Assembly: GCF_030373265.1 (NCBI RefSeq)
Contig: NZ_JAUCZC010000030.1
Coordinates: forward strand, 1 to 40,775
Reading direction: 5' to 3'
Length of the DNA stretch: 40,775 nt
Source of the DNA: Blastomonas sp.
GTDB lineage: Bacteria; Pseudomonadota; Alphaproteobacteria; Sphingomonadales; Sphingomonadaceae
Part shown: piece after piece, positions 11,924 through 19,076 of the stretch
Layout of the letters: the number at the start of each line of letters is the position of its first letter
How positions within the stretch are numbered: the stretch's first letter is position 1
Made by a program: the position numbers and the translations under genes
Notes under the pieces: generated by a model
What the model saw: only the letters and a program-made list of their open reading frames with translations
Told to the model about the DNA's origin: nothing
Database searches by the model: none

Positions 11924-13782
<1,859 letters not shown>

Positions 13783-13786
13783 GGCG

Positions 13787-15466
13787 ATGCAGCTATCGGT
13801 CTGGACCTATGAAGGGCCTCCTCATGTAGGGGCAATGCGGGTCGCGACCGGCATGAAAGACGTGCACTATCTGCTGCACGCGCCGCAGGGCGATACCTAT
13901 GCCGACCTGCTGTTCACGATGATCGAACGGCGCGGCAAGCGTCCGCCGGTCACCTACACCACCTTCCAGGCGCGCGATCTGGGCAAGGACACCGCCGAAC
14001 TGTTCCAGACCGCCGCACGCGATGCTGTGGCGCGGTTCAATCCGGCTGCTTTGCTCGTTGGATCGTCGTGCACCGCCGAACTGATCCAGGACGACCCCGC
14101 CGGCATGGCGCAGGCGATGCGGCTGGATATTCCCGTCATTCCACTCGAGCTGCCCAGCTATTCCCGCAAGGAGAATTGGGGCGCTTCAGAGACTTTCTAC
14201 CAGATAGTCAGGACTCTCGCGGTCGGGGATTCCTCCCGCCCCGCACCGTGCCAGGCAGGTTCTCCGCGTCCCAAAGCGAACCTGCTTGGGCCGAGCGCAC
14301 TGGGTTTTCGCCATCGCGACGATATCGTCGAGATCGCGAAGATACTGGCTGCGCTCGGCATAGAGATTAACGTCACCGCGCCGATGGGGGCAAGCGCGGC
14401 CGACATCGCCCGGATCGGCGAGGCCGATTTCAACATCGTGATGTATCCCGAAATCGCCGATACCGCGGCGCGGTGGCTGGAGAAGAGCTTCAAGCAGCCC
14501 TTCACCAAGACCATCCCCATCGGCCACGGCGCAACGCTCGACTTCATCCGTGAAGTCGCGGCATTGGCCGGTGTCGATGCCGCTCCGGCGCTGGACCTCG
14601 CCGAAGCGCGGATGCCGTGGTGGAGCCGTTCGGTCGATTCGACCTATCTCACCGGCAAGCGCGTCTTCATCTTCGGCGATGCGACCCACGCCATCGCCGC
14701 GGCCCGCGTGGCACGCGACGAGCTGGGCTTCGTGGTCTGCGGCCTGGGTTGCTACAACCGCGAATTCGCCCGCGATATCCGCGCTGCCGCCGCCGAACAT
14801 GGCGTCGAGCCGCTGATCACCGACGATCATCTCGAGGTCGAGGACGCGATCGCCGCCGCGCATCCCGAGCTGGTGCTGGGCACGCAGATGGAGCGCCACA
14901 TCGCCAAGCGGCTGTCGGTCCCCTGCGCGGTGATCTCGGCGCCGGTGCACGTGCAGGATTTCCCGGCGCGGCACAGCCCGCAGATGGGCTTCGAAGGCGC
15001 CAACGTGCTGTTCGACAGCTGGGTGCATCCTTTGGTCATGGGTCTGGAAGAGCATCTGCTCACCATGTTCCGCGACGATCCGGAGTTTCACGACGGCGCC
15101 GGCGCGAGTCATCTGGCGCATGGCACGACATCCAATCCTCCCCGGACCGGGGAGGGGGACCATGCGCAGCATGGTGGAGGGGAAGCCGGATTGCACTTCC
15201 CTGACGACATTGCGCCCGAACGCTTCCCCTCCGTCAGCGCTGACGCGCTGCCACCTCCCCGTACCGGGGAGGATCTGGGTTCTGCCCACGGCGATGTGCT
15301 CGAACTGACCCGCTGGACCGCCGAAGCGGAGACAGAACTCAAGAAAATCCCCTTCTTTGTGCGTGGCAAGGCGCGGCGCAACACTGAGGCTTATGCCGCT
15401 GAGCGTGGGCTGGCCTCCATCACTATAGACACGCTGTACGAGGCAAAGGCGCATTATGCCCGGTAG
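13787..15466 (+). CDS. bchB: dark-operative protochlorophyllide reductase subunit BchB, with in-frame insertions
   Basis: BchB pairs with BchN in the DPOR NB complex. It contributes the unusual aspartate ligand to the NB 4Fe-4S cluster, and Asp36 is present here ([11 protein letters not shown]). Other marks are [47 protein letters not shown] and the C-terminal protochlorophyllide-binding helix domain (about 505-559, [16 protein letters not shown]). At 559 aa it is longer than the usual roughly 510-530. Two extra stretches explain this: about eight residues near 156-167, encoded over a hairpin (14251-14289), and about 46 residues (450-496) encoded by a palindromic repeat element (15137-15272). 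Both keep the frame and fall in loops or the linker, so the enzyme could still work. The end overlaps bchH by 11 bases. Confidence 0.95.
14251..14289. repeat. 12-bp inverted repeat inside bchB
   Basis: CCAGGCAGGTTC (14251-14262) and GAACCTGCTTGG (14278-14289) are inverted copies with one mismatch (a G-U pair in RNA), separated by 15 bases. They encode most of the Pro/Ser/Arg-rich stretch between QIVR and NLLGP that seems longer than in other BchB proteins. It may be a small palindromic insertion. Confidence 0.5.
15137..15272. mobile_element. MITE-like palindromic repeat element inserted in frame in bchB
   Basis: The segment begins with CCTCCCCGGACCGGGGAGG and ends with CCTCCCCGTACCGGGGAGG, each itself a hairpin. 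The outer 46-47 bases are imperfect inverted repeats of each other (shared blocks CCTCCCC, GGGGAGG, GG-GGAGGGG). One or two more bases (AT/AT) extend the symmetry. This is the form of the small dispersed palindromic units common between genes in Sphingomonas and Caulobacter. Here it lies within the coding frame and adds about 46 codons without a stop, in the variable linker before the C-terminal domain. It has no coding capacity of its own. Confidence 0.75.
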
Positions 15467-18400
15467 AGCCAACCCGTCTGCGGCCAAGAGCCGCTCCGCT
15501 GCGATCCGCGTGGTGTTCATCACGCTCGACAACCATCTGTCGGGTGCCGTCGATCGGGCCGAAGCGGTGCTGGTCAACGATCTTCCCGGCCTGTCGATCG
15601 GCTTCCACGCCGCTGCCGACTGGGACCGCGACCCCGGTGCGATCGATGCCGCGCGCGCCGATATCGCGCGCGCCGACATCGTCATCGCCACCATGCTGTT
15701 CCTCGAGGACCATGTGCGGGCCATCCTGCCCGCGCTCGAGGCCCGGCGCGAGCATTGCGACGCGATGCTGGGGCTGATGTCGGCAGGCGATATCGTCAAG
15801 CTCACCCGCATGGGTGGCTATCGCATGGATGCGCCCGCACGCGGGCCGCTGGCGCTGCTCAAGAAGCTGCGTGGCTCTTCCAAGCCGGGCGCGAGCTCGG
15901 GCGCGGGGCAGATGAAGATGCTGCGCCGCCTGCCCAAGATCTTGAAGTTCATCCCCGGCACCGCGCAGGACGTGCGGCACTATTTCCTGACCCTGCAATA
16001 CTGGCTGGCCGGCAGCGACGACAATGTCGTCTCGATGATCCGCAGCCTGATCGACCGCTATGCCGCGGGCGACCGCGCCGCGCTCAAGGGCACCACGCCC
16101 GCGCAGGCACCGCGCGAATATCCCGAGCTTGGCCTGTATCACCCCGCCTTGCCGCAGCGCATGACCGAAGATGCAGCCGCGTTGCCGCGCGTCGCGCAGG
16201 CCACCGGAACGGTGGGCCTGGTGCTGTTGCGCTCGTATCTGCTGGGCAAGGACGCCGCGCATTATGACGGCGTGATCGCCGCGCTCGAAGCCCGCGGGCT
16301 CAATGTCGTCCCGGTGTTCGCCAGCGGGCTCGATGCGCGCCCGGCCATGGACCGCTTCCTGGTCCGCGACGGCCATCCGGTGGTCGATGCGGTGATCAAC
16401 CTCACCGGCTTCTCGCTGGTCGGTGGCCCGGCCTATAACGATGCTGCTGCGGCCGAAGAGGTGCTAGCGGGCATAGATCTGCCGTATATCGCCGCGCATC
16501 CGATCGAGTTCCAGACTCTCGAGCAATGGGGCAGCCGCCACCAGGGCCTGCTACCGCTCGAAGCGACGATGATGGTGGCGATTCCCGAGCTTGACGGCGC
16601 GATCATGCCGCATGTCTTCGGTGGCCGTTCCGATGGCGCCGGCGTGCCGTGCGAAGGCTGCGAACGCCATTGCCTGTTCACCGCGCCCGATGCGATGCGC
16701 GCGATGCAGAGCTGCCCCGAGCGCGCCGAGATGCTCGCCGCCAAGGTCGAGCGCATGGTCACGCTGCGCCGGTCCGAGCGCGCCAAGCGCAAGCTCGCGA
16801 TCATCCTGTTCAACTTCCCGCCCAATGCCGGCGCCACCGGCAGCGCGGCGCATCTTGCGGTGTTCGAATCGCTCCACGCCACGCTCCACCGGCTGGCGGC
16901 GGAAGGTTATGACTGCTCACCGCCCGCCACCGTCGATGGGCTGCGCGATGCGATCCTCAAGGGCAATTCGGAGCGCTTCGGTTCGGACGCCAATGTCGCG
17001 GTGCGGATCTCGACCGACGACCATGTCACCAACGAGCCGCACCTGCGCGCGATCGAAAAGCAATGGGGCCCCGCGCCCGGCAAGCTGAACAGCGATGGCT
17101 GGTCGATCCATGTGCTCGGCAAGCAGTTCGGCAATGTGTTCGTCGGCGTCCAGCCCAGCTTCGGCTATGAGGGCGATCCGATGCGGCTGCTGTTCGATGG
17201 CGATTTCGCCCCGACGCACGCCTTCGCCGCCTTCTATCGCTGGATCCGGGAAGACTTCCGCGCCGATGCCATGCTGCACTTTGGCACCCACGGCGCGCTC
17301 GAGTTCATGCCGGGCAAGCAGGCCGGGCTTTCGGGCGATTGCTGGCCCGACCGGCTGCTGGGCACCGTCCCCAATTTCTATCTCTATGCGGCCAACAACC
17401 CGTCCGAAGGCATCATCGCCAAGCGCCGCTCGGGTGCGACCCTGGTGTCGTATCTCACCCCGCCGCTCGCCGAAGCAGGCCTGTACAAGGGCTTTGCCGA
17501 TCTGAAAGCCCTGGTGGAACGCTGGCGTTCGCTGGCCGGCGAAGGCGTCGAACGCGCCGCGCTCGAGATCATGATCCACGATGCCGCAATCGCGCTCGAT
17601 ATCGACGGTTCGGATATCGCCGCGCTCGCGGGCAACCTGTACGAGCTCGAACGCGCGCTGATCCCGTTCGGCCTGCATGTGCTGGGCAGCCAGCTCGAAG
17701 GCGAAGAGCGCGAGGCGTTCCTGAACGCGCTGGCCGCCGCCGACAATGGCGCGACCCGCGCCGAACTCGAGGCGAAGCTTTCGGCCAATGACGAACTCGG
17801 CGCTTTGGTCCATGCGCTCGATGGCGGTTATGTCCGTCCGGCACCCGGCGGCGACATCCTGCACAACCCCGAAGTGCTGCCCACCGGCCGCAACACCCAT
17901 GGCTTCGACCCCTTCCGCATCCCTAGCGCCTTTGCCTGCGCCACCGGCACCATTCAGGCCGAAGCTTTGCTGGCGCGGCATGTCGAGGCGGGCGACCCGC
18001 TGCCCGAAAGCATCGCGATGGTGCTGTGGGGCACCGACAATCTGAAGAGCGAGGGCACGCAGGTTGCCCAGGTGCTGTGCCTGATGGGCGCGCGCCCGCG
18101 CTTCGACACCTATGGCCGCCTCGCCGGTGCCGAGCTGATCCCGCTCGCCGAACTCGGACGCCCGCGCATCGACGTGATCGCGACGCTGTCGGGTGTGTTC
18201 CGCGATCTGCTGCCGCTGCAGACCCGGATGATCGCCGAAGCCGCCTGGCTGGCATCGACCGCCGACGAGCCCGAAGAGCTGAACTTCGTGCGCAAGCACA
18301 CGCTGGCGCATGCCGGCCGCATCGGCTGCGATCTGGAGACCGCTTCCCTGCGCGTCTTCTCCAACGCCGAAGGCGCTTATGGCGCGCAGGTCAACATGAT

Positions 18401-19076
18401 GATCGACGGCGGCGCCTGGACCGATCCCGACGAACTCGCCGAAGCGTTCGAAACCCACAAGGGCTATGCCTATGGCCGCTCGGGCGCGCCGGTGAAGCAC
18501 CGCGAACTGCTCGAAAGCGCGCTTTCCTCGGTCGATTTCACCTATCAGAACCTCGACTCGGTCGAACTGGGCGTCACCGATATCGACCAGTATGTCGATG
18601 CTTTGGGCGGGGTCAGCCGCTCGGTCGCCCGCGCCCGCGGCGGCAAGGCCGCGCCGGTCTACATCGTCGATGCCACCGAAGGCGCCGCCAAGGTGCGCAC
18701 CTTGTCCGAACAGATCGACCGCGAGACCCGCACCCGCATGCTCAACCCCAAATGGTACGAAGGCATGCTCAAGCACGGCTTCGAGGGCGTCCGCCAGATC
18801 GAGGGCCATGTCACCACGACGATGGGCTGGTCGGCCACCACCGGCCAGGTCGCACCCTGGGTCTATCAGCAGATCAGCGAAACCTATGTGCTCGACGATG
18901 CGATGCGCGCGCGTCTTGCCAGCCTCAATCCCAAGGCCTCGGCCCGTGTTGCCGAACGCCTTCTGGAAGCATGCGACCGCCGGCTGTGGGAACCGGATGC
19001 CGCAACCCTGGCAGCGCTGCGCGCCGCCGCGGACGATATCGAAGACAGGCTCGAAGGCCTGATCGCAGCAGAATGA
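15456..19076 (+). CDS. bchH: magnesium chelatase subunit BchH
   Basis: BchH is the porphyrin-binding subunit of Mg-chelatase. With BchI and BchD (not in this window) it inserts Mg2+ into protoporphyrin IX, committing it to bacteriochlorophyll. The 1206-aa length is typical. Visible family motifs include the N-terminal [14 protein letters not shown] (about 19-32), [32 protein letters not shown] (about 396-407), [36 protein letters not shown] (about 609-628), and the cobaltochelatase/CobN-type C-terminal half. The ATG at 15456 overlaps the end of bchB by 11 bases; bchL follows after 15 bases. The assignment is firm. Confidence 0.97.

Follow-up and report, generated by a model that had tools for sequence, protein, structure and literature searches.

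A dispersed palindromic repeat lying in frame within bchB of a Blastomonas species, and repeated filling of one valyl-tRNA synthetase loop by palindromic inserts

The DNA analysed here (the window) is a 40,775-nucleotide stretch of a Blastomonas sp. draft genome (contig NZ_JAUCZC010000030.1). It carries a photosynthesis gene cluster in which, among the 10 ORFs scanned, bchP, bchF, bchN, bchH, bchL, puhA, and a 5-aminolevulinate synthase gene were found. Blastomonas is a free-living photoheterotroph, and the pigment gene cluster points likewise. The bchB gene (13787..15466, plus strand) encodes the 559-residue subunit B of the light-independent protochlorophyllide reductase. Directly 5' of it is an ORF containing bchN (12055..13782, plus strand; 625 bits to NF002768 over ORF residues 161-574), and its 3' end shares 11 bp with the ORF of bchH, magnesium chelatase subunit H, taken from the first listed ATG (15456..19076, plus strand; 1982.5 bits to NF009942). 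In profile searches BchB scored 588.6 bits against the DPOR_BchB model TIGR01278 (cut-off 490), PF00148 matched residues 12-416, and the conserved C-terminal domain PCP_red (PF08369, E = 5.8e-21) matched residues 510-554 (15314..15448, plus strand). Two stricter models gave BchB scores under their cut-offs, namely NF002790 (795.5 versus 912 bits, with residues 1-450 as the best stretch) and NF002789 (414.3 versus 509). Apart from the insert described below, which lies upstream of PCP_red, BchB looks intact by TIGR01278, PF00148, and PCP_red. The closest named relative judged by BchB is Blastomonas aquatica (96% identity).

Within bchB lies a 140-bp palindromic element (15135..15274, plus strand), the only copy in the window of a repeat that we call family A. 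Its left 48 bp (15135..15182, plus strand) and right 49 bp (15226..15274, minus strand) pair with one another as imperfect terminal inverted repeats, 39 of 51 alignment columns being identical when the left arm is compared with the reverse complement of the right arm. The two self-complementary ends are CCTCCCCGGACCGGGGAGG (15137..15155), which belongs to direct-repeat family D1 and inverted pair I1, and CCTCCCCGTACCGGGGAGG (15254..15272), from the repeat listing of the window. The terminal inverted-repeat score of the element is 24, and the maximum among 4064 window stretches sampled every 10 bases is 20. Folded as RNA, the element has a predicted free energy of -96.9 kcal/mol (z -8.4), and none of 200 shuffles was equally stable. 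The bchB frame is open through the whole element, which provides 47 codons (N450-D496) rich in Pro, Gly, Ser, and His. A first-pass annotation made from the window alone had placed the element at 15137-15272, in the bchB frame without stop or frameshift. The palindrome is real and the frame is open as it said, and the boundaries move to 15135-15274 on the basis of the ATCCTCC...GAGGAT ends found throughout the family in an alignment of 42 copies.

A sliding hairpin scan with a threshold of 5 standard deviations (sd) called nothing and also missed the bchB element itself. The rescaled scan, run over 24 bch loci (17,954 scan windows), ranked the bchB linker of the window first at -5.1 sd and gave -3.6 sd for the BchB linker of B. 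aquatica; strong hairpins were present elsewhere in the 24 loci too, and no hairpin was found in the remaining BchB linkers that could be placed. A palindrome arising by chance is ruled out by the other genomic copies and by an inverted-repeat score above that of all window stretches sampled. A known structured RNA was also considered and rejected; an Rfam search returned microRNA models only, far under their thresholds. Separately, the rescaled scan found a second unusually strong hairpin within bchB (14221-14360, -4.0 sd), in a stretch that is longer than in the solved homologue 8vqi and does not match the family-A model. A hairpin of comparable strength is found at a comparable position in locus L044.

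Searching the 3.66-Mb host draft genome with the element and its flanks gave at least 69 matches, both strands counted, with 40 of 86 first-look candidates scored. From the window and 32 stretches fetched around listed matches we aligned 42 distinct family-A copies, a lower bound for the host genome, in which at least one further place (C3:72665) gave a match. Most copies are about 120-160 bp and one is truncated. The left end reads ATCCTCC in 36 of the 42 copies and the right end GAGGAT in 37, with both present in 31; several of the 41 other copies are 80-81% identical to the bchB element over almost its full length. All nine Blastomonas genomes contain family-A matches at E <= 0.001 (at least 68, then 36, 16, 21, 5, 13, 5, 7, and 8, counts that are lower bounds for part of the genomes). 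The element had been described at first pass as a mobile-like palindromic unit, and the lack of any other genomic copy had been named as the outcome that would speak against this; the 42 or more host copies and the matches in all nine genomes uphold the description.

When the nine Blastomonas bchB genes were aligned, the family-A elements of the window species and B. aquatica fell at one and the same position. The insertion is common to two species and is therefore not strain noise. Six other complete bchB genes lack family A and have an unrelated, shorter linker, and the ninth, from CACIA14H2, is cut by a contig end. The second outcome that had been set against the first-pass reading, an ancient linker with the same residues in all close relatives, was thus not found. 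That reading had also predicted that the element adds about 46 residues, visible as a precise gap of 45-47 residues in an alignment of relatives. The element does encode 47 residues, but the net gain relative to the nearest uninserted relative is about 14 and no such gap is seen. With so small a difference in length from the nearest uninserted linker, the insertion is not a clean addition, and some of the former linker sequence was lost or replaced. The accompanying statement that this linker is variable in the family was borne out in a wider set of 83 BchB proteins, in which the linker could be read in 73 and is variable and often Pro/Ala-rich.

Both ends are readable in 37 copies, and 29 of these have no stop in the bchB frame, the most open of the six. 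A second in-frame copy, in the valyl-tRNA synthetase gene valS, is read from the other strand in the least open frame, which is stop-free in 18 of the 37. Copies without a stop are therefore frequent whichever frame is read, so that in-frame survival is easy, but the valS frame is not among the favoured ones. Between the window species and B. aquatica the bchB insert differs in 7 of 47 codons, three silently and four with replacement, without stops or indels, a number of changes insufficient to show constraint. We compared orthologous copies by fetching 19 B. aquatica places (of 36 matches), of which 12 have matching flanks in the host; for one of these, L226, the match is clear on one side only. 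Seven of the 12 pairs, including those in bchB and valS, are gap-free with 6-10 substitutions. The other five (L010/L226, L013/L212, L033/L227, L038/L211, and L039/L216) have 27-41 substitutions, four of them also with gaps, between ordinary flanks. Since five of the ten orthologous copies outside bchB and valS are equally intact, intactness alone is no proof of selection for coding. The five divergent sites suggest that elements were exchanged, or underwent gene conversion, at fixed positions.

In all, 30 stop-free frames span family-A copies, and 22 of the 42 copies have one or more of them. Of the 28 such frames that lie outside the window, 20 were compared with Pfam, a scan that would miss intragenic copies in genes without Pfam families, and four contained a family. 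The sole scanned frame with Pfam domains on both sides of the element is valS. In the ABC transporter, DUF559, and GspH-like frames the element precedes the domain and probably lies upstream of the true start. The host valyl-tRNA synthetase (ValS) has 958 residues, of which about 503-548 are encoded by the element in the orientation opposite to that in bchB. The insert peptides of BchB and ValS both start N-P and end P-P-P-x-x-G-E-D. The ValS site aligns between residues 473 and 474 of the solved valyl-tRNA synthetase 1gax, which we take to be the Thermus enzyme. The valS genes of genomes G000 and G001 carry family A, and the loop of G002 is a natural empty allele, with 24 residues between WFSSALWP and GFDILFFW versus 67 in the window species. 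The clean gap between uninserted and inserted proteins that had been predicted for BchB therefore occurs in valS, in the comparison with G002. In-frame insertion was thus found in two conserved and unrelated genes, both of which have uninserted homologues. As a side observation, the uninserted valS of G007 (L159/L205) has, at about residues 453-480 of host ValS, a longer divergent segment, CFNHVTLETQIF..., in place of GSDGKCYVAETE...; this segment is absent from the other eight aligned Blastomonas valS genes and may reflect exchange with a distant valS.

The same ValS loop is filled in other genomes. We sampled 118 genomes of the order; 111 had a ValS match, 35 of these belonged to the family of the host, and the loop was read in all 35. 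Its length, host included, is 23-30 residues in 25 family genomes (exactly 24 in 19), 49-67 in nine, and 39 in one. Long palindromic inserts are present in nine of the 35 family genomes. The inserts follow GWPD (L014/L151 in the host, and L152, L153, L191, L192, L195, L198, L199, L202, L203, and L206-L208). Among the nine Blastomonas genomes six have inserted loops: G000 and G001 have family A, G006 family B, G003 and G008 family C, and G005 a family that we call D-prime, at a contig break; G002, G004, and G007 are uninserted. Outside the family of the host, 61 of the 76 genomes with a ValS match, those in which a single match spans the loop, were checked, and none had net extra length relative to G002; a 62nd row of this comparison, G061, belongs to the family of the host and is left out of the count. 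As DNA, all 12 complete long inserts, those of Blastomonas among them, are much more stably folded than shuffled sequence (z -4.0 to -10.1), versus -1.6 to +0.5 for three uninserted loops. Folding was unremarkable for the truncated G005 insert (z -0.5) and a short insert in G081 (z -1.1).

The palindromes at this loop were assigned by eye from their sequences to about six families, most of which are, by matches to their sequences, dispersed repeats in their hosts. Match counts for families B-E cover both strands and also count the place of the query itself. The family-B query, from G006 valS, had 47 matches in G006 and 82 in the host genome, and the G033 and G064 ValS inserts were placed in this family by eye. 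The family-C query, from G008 valS, had 84 matches in G008, 94 in G003, 16 in G013, 15 in G052, and 4 in G038. The family-E insert of G078 had 21 matches in its own genome. Family D, from the G075 insert, is weak as a repeat, with only one other place in G075. Six families imply at least six gains at the ValS loop. In a maximum-likelihood tree of 42 ValS proteins with the loop removed the inserts are scattered, and a hand count that allowed shared descent among tree neighbours only and left out losses gave about ten gains, on a tree in which several inner branches are weakly supported and G000 and G001 are unpaired despite sharing family A (SH-aLRT 77, 10).

The BchB linker likewise took palindrome families other than A, to judge from repeat matches; the folding signal is weak (hairpin z -1.6 to -3.6 for the ursincola, natatoria, and Citromicrobium-type linkers). 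A search with the ursincola linker (family D-prime) gave 22 matches in the ursincola genome, both strands and the linker's own place included, and also hit the end of the truncated insert in valS of CACIA14H2 (G005:C64:37-77). In the Sphingomonas MAGs L047 and L098 the linker is family-C-like, and their genomes contain 70 and 56 family-C matches, respectively. The Citromicrobium-type linkers (L055:4353 and L088:4344) contain a CGTC-headed stem-loop read as RHAELVSASS. In CACIA14H2 the two contig ends that cut bchB both lie within a family-B-like repeat and share an overlap of 32 identical bases, and the family-B query taken from valS matches the first of these ends (E 1.2e-15). The CACIA14H2 draft assembly is thus interrupted within in-frame repeats in bchB (L129/L130) as well as in valS (L206); given such breaks, in-frame inserts may be under-reported in draft genomes or wrongly annotated as truncated genes.

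Mobilisation by a resident RAYT enzyme was considered and rejected. The host draft genome (95.8% complete) has no match to PF01797, the Y1/RAYT transposase family. Two of the nine Blastomonas genomes have PF01797 matches (L209 and L210), and the 3.3-kb loci around these Y1 genes contain no family-A copy and no match to seven queries from families B-E. No target-site duplication was seen by eye at the valS site relative to G002; the bchB site is too diverged. Family A has the ends ATCCTCC/GAGGAT, and its internal CCGTCAG adjoins a 6-bp stem, versus the 8-9 bp stem given in the main text of PMC3733652.

A multi-copy family, its in-frame position, its presence and absence among relatives, and the recurrence of inserts at the ValS loop are what was observed. 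We read family A, with a probability of roughly 0.85, as a non-autonomous dispersed palindrome of about 140 bp, MITE- or BIME-like, that was inserted in bchB of an ancestor of the window species and B. aquatica and is near-neutral there. The unit would be mobilised by an enzyme acting in trans and would land at many places. Most intragenic insertions would be lost, and those that are in phase and stop-free within tolerant protein stretches would remain. In bchB the insertion would have occurred in the common ancestor of the two species, with part of the variable linker replaced or lost. The 47-residue insert would sit in the stretch that tethers the small C-terminal domain to the nitrogenase-like core, where it is presumably translated in vivo, flexible, and at the surface. 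Near-neutrality would require no particular selection for the insert, and the same tolerance logic may account for the family-A copy in valS and for the repeated filling of the ValS loop by unrelated families.

The alternatives fare less well. That the insert is an ancient Pro/Gly-rich spacer, its DNA palindromic by chance or through GC-rich codon use, would agree with a BchB linker that is variable and often Pro/Ala-rich; related copies at 41 other places, the unrelated linker sequence of the closest uninserted species, and the first rank of the bchB linker among the 24 bch loci make this extremely improbable, and we take the ancient-linker reading to be refuted by the dispersed copies. The term "domesticated" used at first pass holds insofar as a dispersed mobile-like repeat became coding in bchB, but a useful function is unsupported, and so is the effect on expression of bchB versus bchH that had also been suggested. 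A co-opted insert, whose peptide or RNA hairpin alters BchB activity or the bchB:bchH translation ratio, would explain its persistence in two species with neither stop nor indel and would give a role to the highly stable hairpin that its RNA forms some 180 bp upstream of where bchH is listed to start, in an operon where the two ORFs overlap. Six related species do without the element in bchB, however, relatives have unrelated sequence at the same place of BchB, and substitutions within the insert are not clearly constrained, so that we hold co-option to be quite unlikely; an influence of the RNA hairpin on bchH is a possible, candidate regulatory effect.

A slightly less improbable alternative, though still an unlikely one, is that the ValS loop and the BchB linker are hot spots through the choice of DNA target, beyond what the proteins tolerate. 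About six families and a hand-counted ten or so gains in one ValS loop would fit such targeting, as would the different families in the BchB linker. By eye, the bchB and valS flanks have no motif in common, and a single target rule serving unrelated families is implausible, whereas tolerance plus removal of harmful insertions suffices for the two sites that were surveyed, the ValS loop and the BchB linker. The near-neutral insertion of a dispersed palindrome is therefore the reading that we prefer. A tentative and rather doubtful extension of it is that the ValS loop and the BchB tether are general landing pads in the family of the host, where palindromes replace one another and some are perhaps recruited.

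Palindromes lying in frame within conserved genes are a known phenomenon, which possibly includes some of these synthetase cases. The Rickettsia palindromic elements (RPE), 100-150 bp long and of several families, are described in parts of PMC10969869 and PMC2229807 as lying in frame in conserved protein genes, and these sources date the reports to 2000-2002 (Ogata 2000, 2002). By description family A resembles them as a multi-copy palindrome of about 100-150 bp found in frame in conserved genes. It differs in its host, in that only one of the 20 tested spanning ORFs besides bchB shows a gene location, and in the several unrelated families that share one protein loop here. Wolbachia palindromic elements are, by title, reportedly like those of Rickettsia.

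Another precedent is the report, in the main text of PMC3733652 (2013), of GTAG/CGTC REPs within genes, free-living bacteria included, with tRNA synthetases of E. litoralis and S. alaskensis named and with two Xanthomonas recB genes noted as having different REPs at nearly the same position. That main text leaves the synthetase type unnamed and does not use the word "valyl", the gene list being in its supplement, and we found in it no description of one loop filled by about six families in one bacterial family (PMC3733652). In contrast to those REPs, the 140-bp family-A unit is a composite and has neither GTAG nor CGTC as a terminal tag. The L055 and L088 BchB linkers do resemble CGTC REPs. 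We take E. litoralis and S. alaskensis to be species of Erythrobacter and Sphingopyxis, respectively. Bacterial MITEs and BIMEs (ERIC, NEMIS/Correia, and QMITE) are characterized, in passages of PMC5896051 and PMC2229807, as non-autonomous, with inverted-repeat ends and occasional in-frame fusions. Family A is like these in its terminal inverted repeats (48/49 bp, imperfect), a feature of MITEs, and unlike them in that no TA ends or target duplication were seen. In the open-licence literature we found no report of in-frame palindromes in bchB, Blastomonas, or ValS, and what appears to be new is family A in bchB, together with a single ValS loop that about six families have come to occupy again and again.

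The title of a 2002 paper is said to have called such palindromes unique to Rickettsia; here they lie in frame in pigment and tRNA-charging genes of another bacterial group. Filled and empty alleles of the ValS loop form a matched natural series in which to ask how selfish DNA adds peptide to a protein, neutrally or not. If the landing-pad idea is true, essential proteins of the family would have a segment that is encoded by selfish DNA and turns over.
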